From contig JAJRYZ010000001.1 in NCBI GenBank assembly GCA_024275515.1, positions 1 through 36,962 of the forward strand: 36,962 bases of DNA. The letters run 5' to 3'. Positions 4,498 through 27,245 of the stretch are shown here, piece by piece. The position numbers were made by a program, and so were the translations under genes. The notes under the pieces are model-generated. The model saw only the letters and a program-made list of their open reading frames with translations. It searched no databases and was not told where the DNA came from. How positions within the stretch are numbered: position 1 is the stretch's first letter; each line of letters begins with the position of its first letter. This DNA comes from Spirochaetota bacterium. Lineage in GTDB: Bacteria > Spirochaetota > Spirochaetia > ARS1246.

Positions 4498-5556
4498 ATG
4501 AGCATCGGATCACACACGATTATCGAACATACGGCCGACTATCGGCAATTCCTTCGCGCGCTGCGCAGACGCGAGCGTCCCGAGCATCTGCCGTTCTACG
4601 AGCACCTCGCAAGCGCAGGTTTCTTCGCCGCGCGCACCGGGTTGTCTCGCTCGGAACTCTCGAACGACAATCCCGAATACCCACGCCGCTATGTTGAGTT
4701 TTGGATCGGTATGGGGTACGACGTCGTTCCGCTCGAGATACCGCTCAACTGTCCGCTCCCGAACGAACGGCGCGGAGTATCGGAGGGCAGCGAGGCGCAC
4801 GTCGTCATCCGCGACTGGAGCGATTTCGACTCCTACGATTGGCCTTCGCCGGAGAACGCCGTTGATTTCTCCGCCTTCGAGTCGGCCGCGCGATACCTCC
4901 CGGAGGACGCTCGAATCGTCGGGGGAGTAGCCATGGGTCCCTACGAGTGGGTCTCGAGGATGATGGGTGTGGTCGGTCTCTCCTACGCGTTACAGGATCA
5001 GCCCGATCTCGTGGAAGCGGTTTTCGAGCGGATCGGCCGGCTTCTTGCAGCCGGACACCGGGCGATCGCCGACATGGACTTCGTGTGCGCCACTCGCCAG
5101 GGAGACGACCTGGGATTCAAGACGTCGACCTTTCTTCCGCCCGAAACGCTTCGCGCCTACGTCCTTCCGGTGTATGCCGATCTGGCTCGCGTCGCCCACG
5201 AACGGGGCAAACCGTTCGTGCTCCATTCGTGCGGCAACCTCGAAGAGATATACGACGATCTGATAGACGTGTGCAGGATTGACGGGAAGCACTCTTTCGA
5301 GGACGTGATTATGCCGGTAGTCGAGTTCAAGAAACGTTACGGCGATCGCGTGACTCCGCTCGGCGGTCTGGACGTCGACTTCATCTGCAGGGAAAGTGAA
5401 GAGAACATCCGGCGCTACACGAGGGAACTCATCGACGCGTGTTTCGCCGACGGTTTCTGGACCCTTGGAACCGGAAACTCGCTGACCGACTATATGCCGG
5501 TGGAAAACTACTTGGCCGTGCTCGACGAAGGGCGGAAATACACCCACGCCGGGTAG
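4498..5556 (+). CDS. Uroporphyrinogen decarboxylase-like (MtaA/CmuA-type) methyltransferase family protein
   Basis: A 352-residue TIM-barrel protein of the URO-D superfamily. It carries LHSCGN at residues 242-247, the His-x-Cys pair that in corrinoid-linked methyltransferases (MtaA/MtbA) binds catalytic zinc. It is therefore more likely a corrinoid or thiol methyltransferase than a haem-pathway HemE. GGLDVDFI near residue 285 and a C-terminal LGTGNSLTDYMPVENYLAVLDEGRKY also fit this family. It lies downstream of the lipid kinase in the same orientation (78-nt gap). Its stop codon sits inside the first unit of a short degenerate tandem repeat (5545-5644). No dedicated corrinoid protein gene is beside it, so the substrate is unassigned. 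Confidence 0.85.
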   Translation: MSIGSHTIIEHTADYRQFLRALRRRERPEHLPFYEHLASAGFFAARTGLSRSELSNDNPEYPRRYVEFWIGMGYDVVPLEIPLNCPLPNERRGVSEGSEAHVVIRDWSDFDSYDWPSPENAVDFSAFESAARYLPEDARIVGGVAMGPYEWVSRMMGVVGLSYALQDQPDLVEAVFERIGRLLAAGHRAIADMDFVCATRQGDDLGFKTSTFLPPETLRAYVLPVYADLARVAHERGKPFVLHSCGNLEEIYDDLIDVCRIDGKHSFEDVIMPVVEFKKRYGDRVTPLGGLDVDFICRESEENIRRYTRELIDACFADGFWTLGTGNSLTDYMPVENYLAVLDEGRKYTHAG

Positions 5557-10493: not shown

Positions 10494-10925
10494 TCAAAAC
10501 CCGTAGGTCGAGAATCCGTCCACGCCCTCCTGCCCGGCCTGGAAAGCCCAATACGGCGAAACGCCGAACACCGAATGAAGCTCGCGTTCGGTGTCCCGGT
10601 CGATGTTTTCGCCGTCCTCGATCGCAGGCGCCATACGTACCATGTCCGGCGTGATATCGGAGGCTACCCGTCTTTCGTCGTGGTTCACGCGGCACGTGCA
10701 TACGGGCACGACGATGCTTTTTCCGTCCGTCGAGAACGGAGCGATGGTGGTGTCGACGACCATGTACCTACTCACCTTTTTTTCCGATTCAGTGAGGATG
10801 TCGACGACCTTTCCGATGATCGTCTCGGATTTTCCGACGACGATATAGCCGGTGATGTCCCGATCCAGATCCCGGCAACAATCCTCCGTGGGCATCGCCA
10901 TCTTTCTTACGCTTTTCAAACTCAT
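10494..10925 (-). CDS. PRC-barrel domain protein
   Basis: A 143-residue soluble protein with a PRC-barrel-like core at about residues 24-75 (DITGYIVVGKSETIIGKVVDILTE, then KKVSRYMVVDTT and KSIVVPV). This fold occurs in photosynthetic reaction-centre H subunits, RimM and many small bacterial proteins of unknown role. Two cysteine pairs are visible (EDCCRD near residue 16 and PVCTC near residue 75), possibly metal- or redox-related. Start ATG 10925 is preceded by GGGAG at 7-base spacing. A promoter for the divergent propeller gene lies in the 293 bases upstream. No specific function can be assigned. Confidence 0.72.
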   Translation of the reverse strand: MSLKSVRKMAMPTEDCCRDLDRDITGYIVVGKSETIIGKVVDILTESEKKVSRYMVVDTTIAPFSTDGKSIVVPVCTCRVNHDERRVASDITPDMVRMAPAIEDGENIDRDTERELHSVFGVSPYWAFQAGQEGVDGFSTYGF

Positions 10926-11031
10926 AACCTTACTCCCTCGATTGAGACGCGCTCATCGGCGCGCCCCCTCTCACAGTCGAGATCCCTCCGGGTGAGACGC
11001 CTCCGTCTTCGGCGGGATCGTCCGTACGATA

Positions 11032-11051
11032 TACCCTACCCGGGTGTAGTA
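11032..11051. promoter_or_regulatory. 20-bp imperfect palindrome in the 10926-11218 intergenic region
   Basis: TACCCTACCC meets GGGTGTAGTA back to back, with two mismatched pairs across the dyad. It sits between the divergent PRC-barrel and propeller genes, about 85 bases upstream of the propeller gene's -35 box. Apart from this element and the promoter at 11137-11165, nothing else was recognised in this 293-base gap. Confidence 0.35.
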
Positions 11052-11165: not shown

Positions 11166-11218
11166 AGTATGGTACCCTTGACGGGTATGGTATTTCGATC
11201 CTTTGCACGGAGGCACGT

Positions 11219-12721
11219 ATGAAAAAGACCGCTATCACGGCAATCGCATGGGCGCTTTTGTCCACTTTCGTGTGGGCGCACGGAGGCGACGACCCGCCGA
11301 AGGCCGCAGCCGAGGCGCGCTCGGCGCTTCCGGACAACGCGCTGTGGGTCGCGAACGGTCTCGACGATACGATCAGCGTCATAGAGCTCGGCGCCGGCTC
11401 GGTAACGACCACACTTAGGGCCGGCGTCAACCCGCACATTATTAGTGCGGCGCCCGACGGAAGGTTGATCTATGTCGTAAACGCAGGCGTCCACGATCGC
11501 CCGTCCGCCGAACACGCCTCCGTCGCAAGCGAAATGAAGCCCAAGAGCGAATCCGACAATGACGACGACTCGGGACGGTCGGCGCGCGAAGATCGCGACA
11601 TGAACGAAAGCACCCGAATGGAGAGGACGATGTCGAACAGCCTCTGGATCTATGAGGCATCGAGCGGAGCCGTCGTCGCTACCGTTGCCGTCGGCATGGG
11701 TCCGACGCACGCGCTTCCCTCGCCGGACGGCAGATGGGTGTACGTGACAAACACCGACGAAGATTCGATAACCGTCGTCGACACCTCCACATGGACGGTC
11801 GCCGACACCATATCCGGCCTCCCCGAGCCGCATGACGGTGAATTCAACGACGACGGGACGCTCCTTTTTCTGGCAACAGCCGGCGACAACACGCTCAGCG
11901 TCGTGGACACCGCCGATCGGGCCGTTGTCGGCCGATATCCGGTGGGCGAAAAACCGCGCGGGGTCGCCGTCGGCGGCGCGAGCGGCGAAACGGTGTTTCT
12001 GACCAACAAGGCCGACGGGACGCTGAGCGTCTTCCCCCGCCCGCGCACCGACGAGACGGTCTTCACCTACCGCGTCGGCGACGGACCTCACGCGTTGCGC
12101 GTAGCGCCCGACGGGAAGACGGTCTATATTGCCTTGAGTGCGGAGAACGCCGTCGCGGTGTTTGACGTCGCGGTCGCCGCCGTGGTCGATTCGATAGCCG
12201 TAGGAGAGCTACCCGAGCAACTCGACTTGAGCGACGACGGCCGAACCTTGTTCGTCGGCAACAACGCCGACGCGACCGTTTCGATAATAGATACGGTCAC
12301 ACGCACGGTGACCGATACGATACCCGTCGGTCGGGGCGCCTACGGCGTGCAGGCGGTGGGGCCGCGCTCGACGCAATTCGTCGATCTGCCGAAAACCTCT
12401 CGAGGGTATGCCCGGATCGGCGCCGTCGAATTGAACGACGCGTTGAAAGCGAAAGAGTTTACCCTCATAAACGTGCATGTGCCGTACGCCGGCGATATCC
12501 CGGGGACCGATATGAACATCCCGTTCAACCGGATCGATGAGTACGAGGCGCGCCTCCCCGCGAAAGACCTGCCCGTCGTCGTGTATTGTCGTAGCGGGAG
12601 CATGAGTAGAACGGCCGCCGCCCGGCTCGTCGCGCTCGGCTTCACGAACGTCGTCGAGCTCGACGGGGGATTCAACGCGTGGAGAAGGGCCGGGTATTCG
12701 CTCGTCCGCCGGGACCGATGA
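11219..12721 (+). CDS. Secreted YVTN/YncE-type beta-propeller fused to a C-terminal rhodanese domain
   Basis: A 500-residue exported protein. Signal peptide is residues 1-20 (MKK..., hydrophobic core, VWA), with likely cleavage leaving His as the mature first residue (HGGDD). Residues about 40-390 are repeated YVTN-like blades (LWVANGLDDTISVIE, WVYVTNTDEDSITVVDT, LFLATAGDNTLSVVD, VFLTNKADGTLSVF, VYIALSAENAVAVFD, LFVGNNADATVSIID). An acidic, Met/His-containing insert at about 95-145 interrupts the early blades. Residues about 400-500 form a rhodanese domain with the active-site loop VYCRSGSMSRTA (Cys457) and LDGGFNAW. Start ATG 11219 has GGAGG 5 bases upstream. A methyltransferase gene begins one base after its stop. 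Such propellers often act in binding or scaffolding; the fusion implies periplasmic sulfur (or selenium) transfer, which is inference. Confidence 0.87.
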   Translation: MKKTAITAIAWALLSTFVWAHGGDDPPKAAAEARSALPDNALWVANGLDDTISVIELGAGSVTTTLRAGVNPHIISAAPDGRLIYVVNAGVHDRPSAEHASVASEMKPKSESDNDDDSGRSAREDRDMNESTRMERTMSNSLWIYEASSGAVVATVAVGMGPTHALPSPDGRWVYVTNTDEDSITVVDTSTWTVADTISGLPEPHDGEFNDDGTLLFLATAGDNTLSVVDTADRAVVGRYPVGEKPRGVAVGGASGETVFLTNKADGTLSVFPRPRTDETVFTYRVGDGPHALRVAPDGKTVYIALSAENAVAVFDVAVAAVVDSIAVGELPEQLDLSDDGRTLFVGNNADATVSIIDTVTRTVTDTIPVGRGAYGVQAVGPRSTQFVDLPKTSRGYARIGAVELNDALKAKEFTLINVHVPYAGDIPGTDMNIPFNRIDEYEARLPAKDLPVVVYCRSGSMSRTAAARLVALGFTNVVELDGGFNAWRRAGYSLVRRDR

Positions 12722-12722
12722 G

Positions 12723-13433
12723 ATGAACTTCCGCCGGGAGGCCGGGAGCGGCGGCCGCCGCCATGCGTCGCCGCCCGGAAGCTGCTCTGAAGACGTATCG
12801 TCGCGTCATTCGATATCGACCAAGTACGATCGAGCCTCGAAGAGCTACGACCGGATGGAAGCTCTCATCGAAACGCTTCTGTTTCGTAAAGCGCGGCGAC
12901 GCGCCGTCGCGCACGTTCGGGGAGAGGTTCTCGAAATCGGCGTCGGAACGGGGAAGAACCTGCCGTTCTATCCCGAAAGCGCGACCGTGACGGGCATCGA
13001 CGTCAGCTGCGGTATGCTGGAACGGGCACGTCGAAGGGCCGCACGGCTAAACAACACCGAGATTCGCCTTCGCCGCATGGATGCCGAAGCGATGCCGTTT
13101 CCCGACGACTCTTTCGACACGGTTATTTCAACATTCGTGTTCTGCACCGTTGCGAATCCTCACGCCGGGCTTGGGGAAGCTCTTCGCGTGCTCAAACCCG
13201 CGGGGAAAGCGATATTCCTCGAGCACATGCGAAGTCGACACGTTTTCCTGAACGCCGTGCTTGGATTCATGAATCTGTTTACCTTACCGTTGCTCGGCAC
13301 CTCGATGACTCGCGACACCGAGGCCAACATTCGGGCGGCGGGTTTCGTCGTACACGACGTCGAACTCTTGTTCCTTGATATCGTCCGTCTGATCGTCGCC
13401 ACGAAAAATGCGGACGCGTCGGCGAAAGCGTGA
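12723..13433 (+). CDS. Class I SAM-dependent methyltransferase
   Basis: A 236-residue Rossmann-fold methyltransferase of the UbiE/PmtA-like Methyltransf_11 group. Visible motifs are motif I VLEIGVGTGKNLPFYP (about residues 69-84), acidic motif II TGIDVS, AMPFPDDSFDTVISTFVFCTV (motif post-II) and LRVLKPAGKAIFLEH. The N-terminal 35 residues are Arg/Ser-rich and look unstructured, so the true start could be internal, but ATG 12723 fits tight coupling to the upstream gene (1-base gap). No signal peptide, so it acts in the cytoplasm while its partner is exported. The substrate is unknown; a small thiol, lipid headgroup or metalloid are all possible. Confidence 0.85.
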   Translation: MNFRREAGSGGRRHASPPGSCSEDVSSRHSISTKYDRASKSYDRMEALIETLLFRKARRRAVAHVRGEVLEIGVGTGKNLPFYPESATVTGIDVSCGMLERARRRAARLNNTEIRLRRMDAEAMPFPDDSFDTVISTFVFCTVANPHAGLGEALRVLKPAGKAIFLEHMRSRHVFLNAVLGFMNLFTLPLLGTSMTRDTEANIRAAGFVVHDVELLFLDIVRLIVATKNADASAKA

Positions 13434-23933: not shown

Positions 23934-24977
23934 ATGAAAAAGATAGAGATTGTGGAAATCAAGGTCACCGGTATGACTTGCGACTCCTGCCGCGACCACG
24001 TCGAGCACGCGCTTTCACGTGTCGACGGCGTGACCGCGGTGGAGGTCCCGGGGTGGCGGGAGGGCCGGGCAACGATCACCGTCGCGCCCGGTGTGACCGC
24101 CGCGCAACTCGCCGACGCGGTTGGAGAAGCGGGCTACGGCGCCGAAGAGGTCTCGCGGCGGACGGCGACACCGGAGCGGCCGACGAATGGTCGGGACGTC
24201 GATTACGATCTGGTGGTGATCGGCACCGGAGGCGGCGGAATAGCCGCGGCCATCAAGGCGGCCGAGTCGGGCCGAAGGGTCGGCATCGTCGAGGCGGGGG
24301 TGATCGGCGGCACCTGTGTGAATATCGGTTGCGTGCCGTCCAAGACGCTCATCCGCGCGGCCGAGGCCTTTCGCCGTGCAGAGCATCGGCCGTTTGCCGG
24401 AATCGCGACCCAGCCGGCGCGGCTCGACTGGAAAGAGCTCATAAAGCAGAAGGACGAACTCGTAGGCGAACTTCGACGGACAAAATACGTGGAGGTGCTC
24501 AAGTCGTACGGGGACGGTATCACGCTGATGACCGGTCGGGCGAAGCTCATCCCGGACGGCAGAGTCTCTTTGGACGGCGGAAGGATCCTCCGACCGGGGA
24601 AAATCGTCGTCGCCGCCGGCGCCGCGCCGAAGGTGCTTCCGCTCCCGGGAATCGAAGGGGTGGATGTGTTGACGAGCACGACGGTAATGGAGCTGGAAAC
24701 TCAGCCGGCATCCATCATCATCGTCGGCGGTCGGGTAATCGGTCTGGAGATCGGCGAGGCTCTCGCTCGCTTCGGGACGAAGGTAACGATTCTTCAACGC
24801 AGCCACCGGATTATTCCGGAACACGAACCTGAAATATCCGAAGCCCTCGCCGGTTATCTGCGCGAAGAGGGAGTGACTATCCATACCGGCGTTAAACTCG
24901 AAGCCGCTCGGAAAGACGGGGAAGAGAAGGTCCTCACCGCAACGGTAGAAGGCGAGCGGCGGGAGTTCCGAGCCTAA
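23934..24977 (+). CDS. merA: Mercuric reductase MerA, N-terminal part, ends at in-frame TAA
   Basis: Flavin disulfide oxidoreductase that reduces Hg(II) to Hg(0) with NADPH. Start ATG 23934 has AGGAGG at 7-base spacing. Residues 1-72 are an NmerA-like HMA domain with GMTCDSC (Cys16, Cys19). FAD binding is at YDLVVIGTGGGGIAAA, and the redox disulfide is GGTCVNIGCVPSK (Cys128, Cys133). The NADPH-binding fold is IIIVGGRVIGLEIGEALARFG. The frame stops at TAA 24975-24977 after ...EGERREFRA, but the next codons in the same frame, AILMAAGRVPN, are the expected continuation. The full protein would be 559 residues. If the stop is not suppressed, the product lacks the dimer interface and C-terminal Cys pair and should be inactive. 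Confidence 0.9.
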   Translation: MKKIEIVEIKVTGMTCDSCRDHVEHALSRVDGVTAVEVPGWREGRATITVAPGVTAAQLADAVGEAGYGAEEVSRRTATPERPTNGRDVDYDLVVIGTGGGGIAAAIKAAESGRRVGIVEAGVIGGTCVNIGCVPSKTLIRAAEAFRRAEHRPFAGIATQPARLDWKELIKQKDELVGELRRTKYVEVLKSYGDGITLMTGRAKLIPDGRVSLDGGRILRPGKIVVAAGAAPKVLPLPGIEGVDVLTSTTVMELETQPASIIIVGGRVIGLEIGEALARFGTKVTILQRSHRIIPEHEPEISEALAGYLREEGVTIHTGVKLEAARKDGEEKVLTATVEGERREFRA

Positions 24978-24986
24978 GCGATCCTG

Positions 24987-25613
24987 ATGGCCGCGGGCCG
25001 GGTACCGAATACCGAAGCGATGGGCCTGGAAGAGACCGGCATTGCGTTGGATCGGGACGGGTTCATTATCGTGGACGAGTACATGCAAACCACCAATCCC
25101 GACGTCTACGCCGCAGGAGATGTGACGACGCTCCCGAAGCTGGTCTATGTTGCCGCGGCGGGCGGAGGAATCGCCGCGGAGAACGCGTTGAACGGGAACA
25201 CGAAGAAGCTCGACCTCGCGGTGCTCCCGGAGGTGATTTTTACCGATCCGCAGGTTGCGCGGGTCGGTCTCTCCGAAGCGCAGGCGGTCGCGGAAGGATA
25301 TCAAGTGAAAATCGCGAATCTGCCGCTGGCCTACGTGCCGCGGGCGCTCGCCGCACGCGATACGCGTGGCCTTATCAAGCTGGTGGCCGACAAGAGTTCC
25401 GACCGGCTCCTCGGCGCGCACGTTCTCGCGGCCGAAGGTGGGGAAATCATCCAGACCGCCGCGTTGGCGGTTAAGTTCGGGCTTACGCACGGGTTTACGG
25501 TGACCGAGCTCAGGCAGACGCTGTTTCCCTACCTCGTGCAGACCGAAGGGCTCAAGCTCGCCGCCCAAACATTCGACAAGGACGTCGGTCTTCTTAGCTG
25601 CTGCGCGGGGTGA
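24987..25613 (+). CDS. merA: Mercuric reductase MerA, C-terminal part after in-frame TAA
   Basis: Same frame as the preceding merA segment, separated only by TAA 24975-24977. Contains the second FAD-contact region (YAAGDVTTLPKLVYVAAAGG), the dimerisation domain (VIFTDPQVARVGLSEAQA, LKLAAQTFDKDV) and the C-terminal vicinal cysteines LLSCCAG that pass Hg(II) to the active site of the partner subunit. ATG 24987 lies inside the conserved MAAGRVPN block and has no ribosome-binding site, so independent translation is unlikely. Its 3' end overlaps the convergent merR gene by 20 bases. Confidence 0.82.
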   Translation: MAAGRVPNTEAMGLEETGIALDRDGFIIVDEYMQTTNPDVYAAGDVTTLPKLVYVAAAGGGIAAENALNGNTKKLDLAVLPEVIFTDPQVARVGLSEAQAVAEGYQVKIANLPLAYVPRALAARDTRGLIKLVADKSSDRLLGAHVLAAEGGEIIQTAALAVKFGLTHGFTVTELRQTLFPYLVQTEGLKLAAQTFDKDVGLLSCCAG

Positions 25614-26010
25614 ACGACGATGAGAGAAAGCCGCATCGTTCGCCGCCGCGTGTTTTCTTGCAGGTCGCCTGAAGCGCCGCGAGCTGTTTCTCTATTCGAT
25701 GGAGTGTCTCTATGCGTTCGCGCACTTCCTCAAGCTTCGCCTCGACCTGTTCGAGAACCGAGGCGCAGCTCGCCTTGTCCTCGACCTCGAGCCCGATGAA
25801 GACGCGGATGTCGCGCAACGTGAAGCCGAGAAGTTTGGCCTGAGATATGAACCGCAGACGAGCGACGGCCTCTTCGTCGTACAGTCGGTACCCGGAATCC
25901 GACCGCCTCGCCGGAACAACCAGACCTTCACGCTCGTAGAACCGTATCGTTTCCCTGCTGAAATCGGTGCGTTCGGCGAGCCCGCCTATCGTGATCTCGT
26001 CGCTTCTCAT
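25594..26010 (-). CDS. merR: MerR-family mercury-responsive regulator
   Basis: A 138-residue dimeric regulator with N-terminal winged helix-turn-helix (ITIGGLAERTDFSRETIRFYEREGLVVPARRSDSGYRLY), coiled-coil dimer helix (EQVEAKLEEVRERIETLHRIEKQL) and the three Hg-ligand cysteines in MerR spacing: Cys in DKASCASV, then ATCKKTRGGERCGFL. It is therefore a mercury sensor, not a CueR or SoxR type. ATG 26010 (MRSDEITIGG) is chosen because the longer open frame to 26268 adds only non-family sequence; no strong ribosome-binding site is seen. It converges with merA and overlaps its end, so it is not in the classic divergent merR-merT layout. It presumably acts on the dyad promoter at 23842-23873. Confidence 0.92.
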   Translation of the reverse strand: MRSDEITIGGLAERTDFSRETIRFYEREGLVVPARRSDSGYRLYDEEAVARLRFISQAKLLGFTLRDIRVFIGLEVEDKASCASVLEQVEAKLEEVRERIETLHRIEKQLAALQATCKKTRGGERCGFLSSSFTPRSS

Positions 26011-26138
26011 ATGACGAAGATACTCACCCAACGCTTCCCGCGGAAAGGGCTCTCCACATGAAGTGATTCTCGGCGTGCCCGACTGCATCGAGTATGGCCG
26101 TGTGTGAGCGAATCGCCGGTCAACGGTCAAAACGGCGC

Positions 26139-27245
26139 CTATCGATACCGCCCGAATGCTTCGATCAGTTGCGGCAGACGAGCTATCCGCCCCCAGTCGG
26201 CGTTCGGCGGCACTTGGTCCCCGGCGGCGAGTATCAGCCGGGGCGAGTCTTCCTTCAGCTCGAGCCACTCACGTACGGCGCGGTCGAACTGCTCGCCGGT
26301 CCCGGTGGGACCGAAGACCGTCGGCGGGACGCCGCCTGAAAGAATCATCTCGGGCCCGGCTTCTTCTCGTGCGGCTTTCGGAGAGAGCGAGAACATCGGC
26401 GCCGGCGTTGCGGCGTCGATGCAATCGACGCCGCAACGCGCCAGTGCTCCGAGAAGCCCGCGCATTTCGCCGTCGACGTGCACGGCAAGCGACTTTCCGA
26501 CGCGATGCAAACGGCGAGCAATCTCGCTGTAGTAGGCGCGGCTGAAACGATCGAACAGCGCAGGTGTCTGTACGTTCCCGTCGAGATTGTCGCTCTGAAT
26601 AAGCACGTCGAAGGGGCCGTCGGCAATCGTATCGAGAATGCGAAGATTGGCGTCGTTGACCGACCGGATCAATCGTTCGACTTCATCGGCCGCGTCCTGA
26701 ATCGCGTAAACCGATTTCTCGACGCCCATGTGTCTGCTCATCAGATACCCGAGCCCGGAATAGGGCAGCTGAACATAGATAAAGGCGAGATCGCCCAGCG
26801 CGCGTTCCCACTCCTCGTATCGCTCCCACCTCGCAACGGCGCGAACGCGATCCATCGCGAATCCAACGACCTCGAAGTCGTCTACCGACTGTATCAACCT
26901 GCGAGTGATGTTGTAGGAATAACTCGCCTCCGAAAAAGTGCGTTCTTCGTACACCGTGCCGACGGGCGTCACGATCTCATGACGGTAGACGCCGCCGACG
27001 GTCTCGGCCGACTCGCTTACGCCGTCGTCGTATCGGAGATCGTAAAAGCTTCCCATTTCAACGTACGCGACGGCGCCGAGCAGCCGATGGAGCTCGACTA
27101 ATCGTCTTTCGACTCCGCGCAGCCCCGCAAGGTCGAACGGCACCGAATAGTTCTTTTTGTACCAGTGGCTCAGATCGAGAAACAACGGGACGGCGTCCGG
27201 AGTTTCGCCGCGGAACACGGCGCGTGCGCGTTGTCGTGGTGTCAT
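26139..27245 (-). CDS. Uroporphyrinogen decarboxylase-like protein lacking the HxC zinc motif
   Basis: A 368-residue URO-D-superfamily TIM barrel. Family features include the N-terminal MTPRQRARAVFRGETPDAVP, QSDNLDGNVQTPALFDRFSRAYYSEI, SGGVPPT in the late barrel, and LILAAGDQVPPNADWGRI near the C-terminus. Where corrinoid methyltransferases have HxCG, this protein has HVDGEM, so a zinc-thiolate methyltransferase mechanism is unlikely and the reaction is open. It lies upstream of merR on the same strand (128-base gap) and divergent from the DUF1349 gene. No ribosome-binding site is evident at ATG 27245, but the start matches the family. Confidence 0.82.
   Translation of the reverse strand: MTPRQRARAVFRGETPDAVPLFLDLSHWYKKNYSVPFDLAGLRGVERRLVELHRLLGAVAYVEMGSFYDLRYDDGVSESAETVGGVYRHEIVTPVGTVYEERTFSEASYSYNITRRLIQSVDDFEVVGFAMDRVRAVARWERYEEWERALGDLAFIYVQLPYSGLGYLMSRHMGVEKSVYAIQDAADEVERLIRSVNDANLRILDTIADGPFDVLIQSDNLDGNVQTPALFDRFSRAYYSEIARRLHRVGKSLAVHVDGEMRGLLGALARCGVDCIDAATPAPMFSLSPKAAREEAGPEMILSGGVPPTVFGPTGTGEQFDRAVREWLELKEDSPRLILAAGDQVPPNADWGRIARLPQLIEAFGRYR

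Follow-up and report, generated by a model that had tools for sequence, protein, structure and literature searches.

A metagenome-assembled genome of the Spirochaetota (G000; 329 contigs, 4.2 Mb) contains a 36,962-nucleotide stretch, hereafter the window, that encodes an exported YVTN beta-propeller/rhodanese fusion protein and, directly after it, a methyltransferase that uses S-adenosylmethionine (SAM). The fusion is probably a copper-inducible, exported (periplasmic) copper-handling protein, and the gene pair a copper-resistance operon. This reading is drawn from the candidate CsoR-type operators in front of the pair, the genomic contexts of its relatives, and the existence of copper propellers that act on sulfur compounds, namely thiocyanate dehydrogenase (TcDH) and SELENBP1/MtoX. 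The features of the locus are as follows; ORF denotes open reading frame and pLDDT the predicted local distance difference test score of the AlphaFold2 model.

11031..11047, no strand assigned: candidate CsoR-type operator 1, ATACCCTACCCGGGTGT, within one mismatch of ATACCC-N5-GGGTAT, located between the fusion gene and the PRC-barrel gene that diverges from it (start 10925)
11172..11188, no strand assigned: candidate CsoR-type operator 2, GTACCCTTGACGGGTAT, 47 bp before the fusion start codon
11219..12721, + strand: exported YVTN beta-propeller/rhodanese fusion protein, 500 aa (ORF, Pfam, NCBIfam, AlphaFold2)
11219..11278, + strand: predicted signal peptide, residues 1-20, MKKTAITAIAWALLSTFVWA, with predicted cleavage between VWA and HGG (in the model, a helix at 3-21 and then disorder)
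11339..12358, + strand: seven-bladed YVTN propeller, residues 41-380, with His73, His164 and His205 in blades 1, 2 and 3 and a further His in blade 5 (GPHA) (model, Foldseek)
11492..11635, + strand: acidic Met/His insert in blade 1, residues 92-139, from HDR to before SLW, kept in both Chloroflexota fusions (low pLDDT)
12407..12709, + strand: rhodanese domain, residues 397-497, of the subfamily NVHxPYxG(D/E)IPxTD plus CRSGxMS (Pfam Rhodanese, PDB matches, alignment A2)
12587..12589, + strand: codon of the active-site Cys457, in the loop CRSGSMS, which includes Met462
12723..13433, + strand: class I SAM methyltransferase P0002, 236 aa, with the family-specific motif FVFC (Cys141) (ORF, Pfam, NCBIfam)

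Architecture and recurrence of the gene pair

The first-pass annotation had described a secreted protein that joins a YVTN propeller to a complete rhodanese domain, with a cytoplasmic methyltransferase starting one base later, and this description holds. The fusion ORF matches Pfam YNCE (2.9e-18), Lactonase (5.5e-15), Rhodanese (1.4e-11, residues 420-490) and also Cytochrom_D1, and its AlphaFold2 model contains a propeller and a C-terminal rhodanese domain at a mean pLDDT of 86.6. TIGR02276 repeats score 133 bits against a cut-off of 27.85, YNCE lies above its own cut-off and the fold matches 1l0q and 1ri6, all of which identifies a YVTN/YncE-like propeller. The rhodanese domain scores 45.1 bits with PF00581 (cut-off 22.2) and is modelled confidently at residues 440-490, so a rhodanese fold with its active-site cysteine loop is present; its relatives in the PDB are 1yt8, 6mxv and GlpE. 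The fusion ends in a TGA at 12719-12721, and the methyltransferase ATG at 12723 leaves a gap of a single base. P0002 matches Pfam Methyltransf_11 (7.9e-24) and lacks a signal peptide.

An alignment search of GTDB genomes with the rhodanese domain gave 421 relatives, and the loci of the best 80 were analyzed. The same fusion architecture was found among these 80 in two Chloroflexota, one of the Anaerolineae (L079) and one of the Caldilineales (L098), whose proteins are 50% identical to the one studied here along some 490 aa. Most of the remaining relatives are exported rhodaneses that stand alone. The two fused relatives have lipoprotein-type leaders (LVAAC and VLAAC) and the fusion studied here has a signal peptide, so all three are predicted to be exported. 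No second fusion was seen within the Spirochaetota, of which 393 genomes were sampled.

The fusion ORF is no artefact of assembly, since the same architecture, aligned over the junction, occurs in two independent genomes and the composition of the contig fits its own genome. In tetranucleotide composition the contig correlates at 0.89-0.97 with the genome's other contigs and at -0.14 to 0.56 with other loci, and the gene pair itself falls inside the range of 2.2-kb chunks from the window. Contamination by a foreign contig was rejected on these compositional grounds.

Adjacency of rhodanese and methyltransferase genes recurs as well. In four other Chloroflexota loci (L099, L110, L121 and L140), a methyltransferase with 42-44% identity to P0002 is the next same-strand gene after a stand-alone rhodanese. 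The methyltransferase ORF overlaps the end of the rhodanese in two of them (L121 and L140), and a DUF411 gene comes next in L140. Thus the fusion is not unique to this genome and the rhodanese-methyltransferase pair is conserved elsewhere. We found no description of this propeller-rhodanese and methyltransferase combination in the open-access literature, nor any paper there that connects copper resistance with such YVTN propellers or such rhodaneses. A search of a phage collection returned a single weak, irrelevant match.

Operators and copper islands

The two candidate operators lie 47 and 188 bp 5′ of the fusion gene and 141 bp from each other. A parallel is seen in a cluster of another spirochaete (G036), which runs in the order VDGHLF-type protein, site, TlpA, CcdA, site, rhodanese, EHEWMDEMIGGEGSESL protein, CsoR. 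The second of these sites, ATACCCTACCCGGGTAT, is a perfect one that begins 45 bp upstream of the start codon of the rhodanese gene. Operator 1 shares its core and its 5-bp spacer (TACCC), and operator 2 occupies almost the same position relative to its gene. Perfect sites also occur upstream of the rhodanese genes of M. gilvum (155 bp) and M. porcinum. Within the genome of the window, a site with no more than one mismatch stands before csoR (C18:17522), a perfect site precedes a copper P-type ATPase gene (C104:1553; TIGR01511), and another site, with further weaker copies, lies in the divergent promoter of a cluster encoding a Met-rich protein and TlpA (C172).

The genome also encodes two well-conserved DUF156 regulators, on contigs C18 and C251, in which the spacing Y-C-x24-H-x3-C corresponds to Tyr35-Cys36-His61-Cys65. 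This Tyr-Cys-His-Cys set is the Cu(I) fingerprint of CsoR, although the Cys/His pattern by itself does not settle the metal (PMC4235346). CsoR regulons are marked by a pseudo-palindromic promoter operator containing C/G tracts and by a DUF156 regulator that bears the Cu(I) fingerprint, and both features are found here. A join of contigs C18 and C104 was considered and rejected, as their end sequences are similar but differ.

The rhodanese relatives frequently occur near metal-transport genes. P-type ATPase homologues lie within 10 kb in 35 of the 80 loci and within 2 kb in 23, where about 1.2 would be expected from a density estimate (five per 4.2 Mb in the genome of the window, over 1.0 Mb of flank) that does not use matched random loci. 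CsoR is encoded in the neighbourhood of the rhodanese in G036 and in a further genome (G062), with the Y-C-x24-H-x3-C spacing. The annotated plasmid contexts of rhodanese relatives contain four-helix copper proteins, a copper ATPase, CsoR-type regulators and DUF305; no metal genes appear in the annotated context of the rhodanese on a Pseudonocardia plasmid. The stand-alone exported rhodaneses of copper islands share the signature INVHxPYxGEIPxTD ... CRSGxMS with the domain in the fusion, some of them share its operator, and CsoR, TlpA, CcdA and copper ATPases are among their neighbours. Unlike the fusion, they have no propeller. Both the Cys and the Met of the CRSGxMS loop are invariant among the nine sequences of alignment A2, a set put together ahead of the pattern-based scan. 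Met462 belonged to the scan pattern behind the 80-locus set, so we claim its invariance from these nine sequences only.

The propeller has relatives in copper islands too. A stand-alone relative in Polaromonas (L039) has a heavy-metal ATPase gene on one side and copper oxidase/cupredoxin genes on the other. Together with five relatives sampled, blind to context, from 60 on plasmids, it makes six contexts read from Proteobacteria, Actinomycetota and Deinococcota, and all six are copper islands. The other five contain CueP and a copper ATPase (Deinococcus), a multicopper oxidase and plastocyanin (Pseudorhizobium), a multicopper oxidase, CcdA and an ATPase (Cryobacterium), a copper oxidase and a DUF305 fusion (Paracoccus), and copB/copC/copD (P. 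nitroreducens). In the Paracoccus case (Paracoccus sp. AK26, plasmid pAK2; L165:4431-5939) the propeller itself is fused to DUF305 rather than to rhodanese, which indicates that the copper-island propeller joins different copper-island domains.

Each of His73, His164 and His205 stands at the start of the strand after a 'G..P' turn in blades 1-3, and all three are invariant in nine copper-island propellers. The stand-alone YVTN or 'cytochrome D1 domain' propellers, such as Polaromonas WP_011798145.1 and Deinococcus WP_104992625.1, share these positions and the copper-island context with the fusion; some have an insert at the equivalent place, and none has a rhodanese domain. Nine of 12 control YVTN propellers from the phylum search do not have the triad at the equivalent places and carry Lys, Arg, Thr or other residues instead; of the remaining three, one has the triad (L029), one has the motif in some blades only (L026) and one was not read in frame (L011). 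As the triad would predict, the sole Spirochaetota YVTN match in which it is complete (L029/L167) is flanked by Met/His-rich proteins. The blade-1 insert, a flexible stretch of low pLDDT at about residues 100-140 of the model, measures 48-52 residues in the two Chloroflexota fusions, where it starts at HDR and stops short of NSLW; it is rich in Asp and Glu and has four or five Met and two to five His. In propellers, the face on which the His-bearing strand begins is also that of the insert loop, and so the histidine face and this flap are likely to be neighbours, a placement reasoned from propeller topology.

Relatives of the methyltransferase follow the same pattern. Among Spirochaetota relatives (41-57% identity), a copper-type P-ATPase adjoins the gene in G008 and G033. 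In G011 the methyltransferase adjoins a P-ATPase and lies 3′ of TlpA-CcdA and a Met-rich protein, and in G031 a P-ATPase is found within about 4 kb; the G036 relative sits on a contig too short to show its surroundings. On plasmids, a heavy-metal P-ATPase or copper-binding protein accompanies the methyltransferase in four of the seven contexts read, with P-ATPases, TRASH, a four-helix copper protein and CsoR among the neighbours. The best structural match of P0002 is the phosphatidylethanolamine N-methyltransferase 8ys9 (same fold, 32% identity), but P0002 scores 86.3 bits against the PmtA cut-off of 390 (NF045882). It differs from this PmtA-type enzyme in its copper-island context and in the FVFC motif, whose Cys is invariant in nine family members and which is replaced by HVLS in 8ys9.

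Probable copper handling and its alternatives

When copper is low, a CsoR-family repressor (the C18 copy) would sit on both operators and keep the operon off. Copper would release the repressor and turn the operon on together with the copper ATPase gene, the TlpA cluster and csoR. The exported fusion would then handle copper outside the cytoplasm, with a propeller face of three to four histidines and the Met/His/acid-rich flap as the putative copper-binding sites. The rhodanese domain, with a persulfidable Cys457 beside an invariant Met, may carry out copper-sulfur chemistry at the same site. It could bind Cu(I) through its thiolate, or it could deliver sulfane sulfur that TlpA/CcdA-type thiol reductants would convert to sulfide, trapping the copper as Cu-S. 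TlpA has an operator in common with the fusion in this genome, and TlpA and CcdA share the rhodanese cluster in G036. The methyltransferase would be the cytoplasmic partner in the same stress response, its most likely substrate being a membrane lipid, a quinone or a small thiol.

A more specific version of this scheme is that the rhodanese feeds sulfane sulfur to the His-ligated copper of the propeller, forming a CuZ-like copper-sulfide centre or a Cu-S mineral outside the cell, with the methyltransferase as a dedicated partner. We regard this version as speculative and rather unlikely. If true, it would make the fusion a one-protein device joining copper capture to sulfur delivery. The main reading itself would bring copper and sulfur chemistry together in a single exported protein, with a bearing on how copper is disarmed beyond the classical Cop/Cus systems and on a possible sulfide source for copper-sulfur centres. 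Three widespread proteins that lacked an assigned function, namely the YVTN propeller annotated as 'cytochrome D1 domain', the NVHxPY exported rhodanese and the PmtA-like methyltransferase, are each encoded in copper islands over several phyla, and in the present genome two of them are joined in one protein behind copper-type operators. A testable function is now available for these poorly annotated genes of metal-resistance plasmids.

There are several known systems with which the pair can be compared. Operons under CsoR control (csoR, copZ, copA/copB) have the operator type, the Cu(I)-type CsoR and the co-occurring copper P-type ATPases in common with it, but their effector is an ATPase or chaperone, where here it would be an exported propeller-rhodanese with a methyltransferase. 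Foldseek matches of the fusion include thiocyanate dehydrogenase structures. TcDH is a copper-containing propeller that cleaves a sulfur compound (PMC6504805), and SELENBP1/MtoX is a copper-dependent propeller working on methanethiol (PMC10362175). These two and NosZ are propellers with His-ligated copper, the first two performing sulfur chemistry. TcDH loci carry copper transport genes, yet the identity of the fusion to the enzyme of 5F75 is only about 12%. The SELENBP1/MtoX family (SBP56) is absent from the Pfam matches of the fusion at E<=0.01. To our knowledge, no copper beta-propeller of the TcDH, SELENBP1 or NosZ kind is fused to a rhodanese. A precedent for a propeller joined to a redox or copper domain is Deinococcus DrSOD, a Cu/Zn-SOD fusion, although its propeller is a six-bladed, calcium-binding SGL and it has no rhodanese (PMC12362111).

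Several observations weigh against copper handling. The window has no copper gene directly beside the pair, and the link depends on the operators and the relatives. Across the 4.2-Mb genome, ATACCC-N5-GGGTAT is matched with one mismatch or none at 11 places. A rough estimate for equal base frequencies gives about 9 by chance, a number not far from 11, and several of the sites sit within unrelated genes; it is thus the placement of the sites that is informative, not their number. Homology to P-ATPases alone is no proof of copper specificity. Finally, the 'PH' motif is partly present in a propeller that adjoins a two-component system (L168), so that the His triad is not diagnostic on its own.

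As an alternative, a CstR-like persulfide sensor could control the operon, with the fusion detoxifying or relaying sulfane sulfur outside the cell and the copper neighbours reflecting overlap between stresses. TauE/SafE and TlpA do occur among the neighbours of the Deinococcus rhodanese. We nevertheless consider this improbable, as both well-conserved DUF156 regulators of the genome carry the Cu(I) fingerprint, the sulfur regulator TTHA1953 binds TACNNTACNNNNGTANNGTA, unlike the operators here, and the relatives are accompanied by copper P-ATPases and copper-binding proteins. An extracytoplasmic sulfur-transfer role for the rhodanese domain, judged from its sequence, is possible, since the active-site Cys is invariant. 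The first-pass annotation had suggested a module for handling sulfur, selenium or metalloids, in which the rhodanese would mobilize sulfur, selenium or tellurium outside the cell and the methyltransferase would make volatile methyl compounds inside it. In its favour, the genes are indeed adjacent, the neighbourhood of rhodanese and methyltransferase is conserved, and copper-dependent propellers of the SELENBP1/MtoX type act on methanethiol (PMC10362175). A methylation module of this kind for selenium, tellurium or metalloids is unsupported, however, and the proposal appears highly improbable. P0002 is closer to phosphatidylethanolamine N-methyltransferase, its nearest solved relative, than to the NCBIfam models of the arsenite methyltransferase ArsM, a candidate identity we rejected at 62.5 against 510, 55.2 against 263 and 36.6 against 240 bits. 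The ars, sel and tel genes were not recognized near the pair or in most of the relatives' neighbourhoods read, whereas copper genes were; the context consists of CsoR-type operators, copper P-type ATPases, CopBCD, four-helix copper proteins, DUF411 and TlpA/CcdA.

A coincidental association with copper would leave the propeller as an electron-transfer or lactonase-like enzyme of the cytochrome D1/6-phosphogluconolactonase type. Pfam Lactonase, Cytochrom_D1 and YNCE all match it, and annotations of its relatives name a cytochrome D1 domain or the lactonase family. Even the top-scoring NCBIfam enzyme models fall far below their cut-offs, YncE reaching 49 of 400 bits and L-NosZ (nitrous oxide reductase, clade III lactonase type) 55.3 of 700, so that L-NosZ was rejected. 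All six contexts read, from three phyla, are copper islands, and we consider this explanation highly improbable. Membership in the hydrazine synthases was also rejected, with a score far below the cut-off.

Further genes near the pair and in the window

The PRC-barrel protein divergent from the pair (window 10494-10925, minus strand) has a weak match to TIGR01150, the photosynthetic reaction centre H subunit, at 35 bits and far below the cut-off. Because of this divergent arrangement, operator 1 may also control the PRC-barrel gene. The Met-rich exported protein encoded beside the TlpA gene on C172 (L060:2434-4055), where several CsoR-type sites occur, has the motif (E/V)HEWMDEMMGGEGSESL. Proteins with this motif are encoded 3′ of the rhodanese in G036 and accompany the rhodanese in G062 and G011, and they form an unnamed copper-regulon family. 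A large spermidine synthase-like membrane protein is encoded near copper clusters of several Spirochaetota (L062:1953-4325, L175:7232-9559, and contigs C18 and C104 of the present genome). The P-type ATPase directly 3′ of the Anaerolineae fusion (L079:10380-13025) begins with a remnant of a CsoR (DUF156) domain, covering PF02583 positions 3-27.

Elsewhere in the window, positions 23935-25613 (plus strand) encode a MerA-like mercuric reductase that has an HMA-like segment at its N terminus. Its reading frame is broken by a single in-frame TAA (24975-24977), and the pieces on either side match TIGR02053 positions 1-257 and 262-465; either a pseudogene or an assembly error would account for the interruption. 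A MerR-family regulator (25594-26268, minus strand) lies at the 3′ end of this gene. Two homologues of uroporphyrinogen decarboxylase/MtaA-type methylcobamide methyltransferases are encoded at 4498-5556 and 26139-27245, and a BcrAD/DUF2229 activase-like protein at 226-2808.
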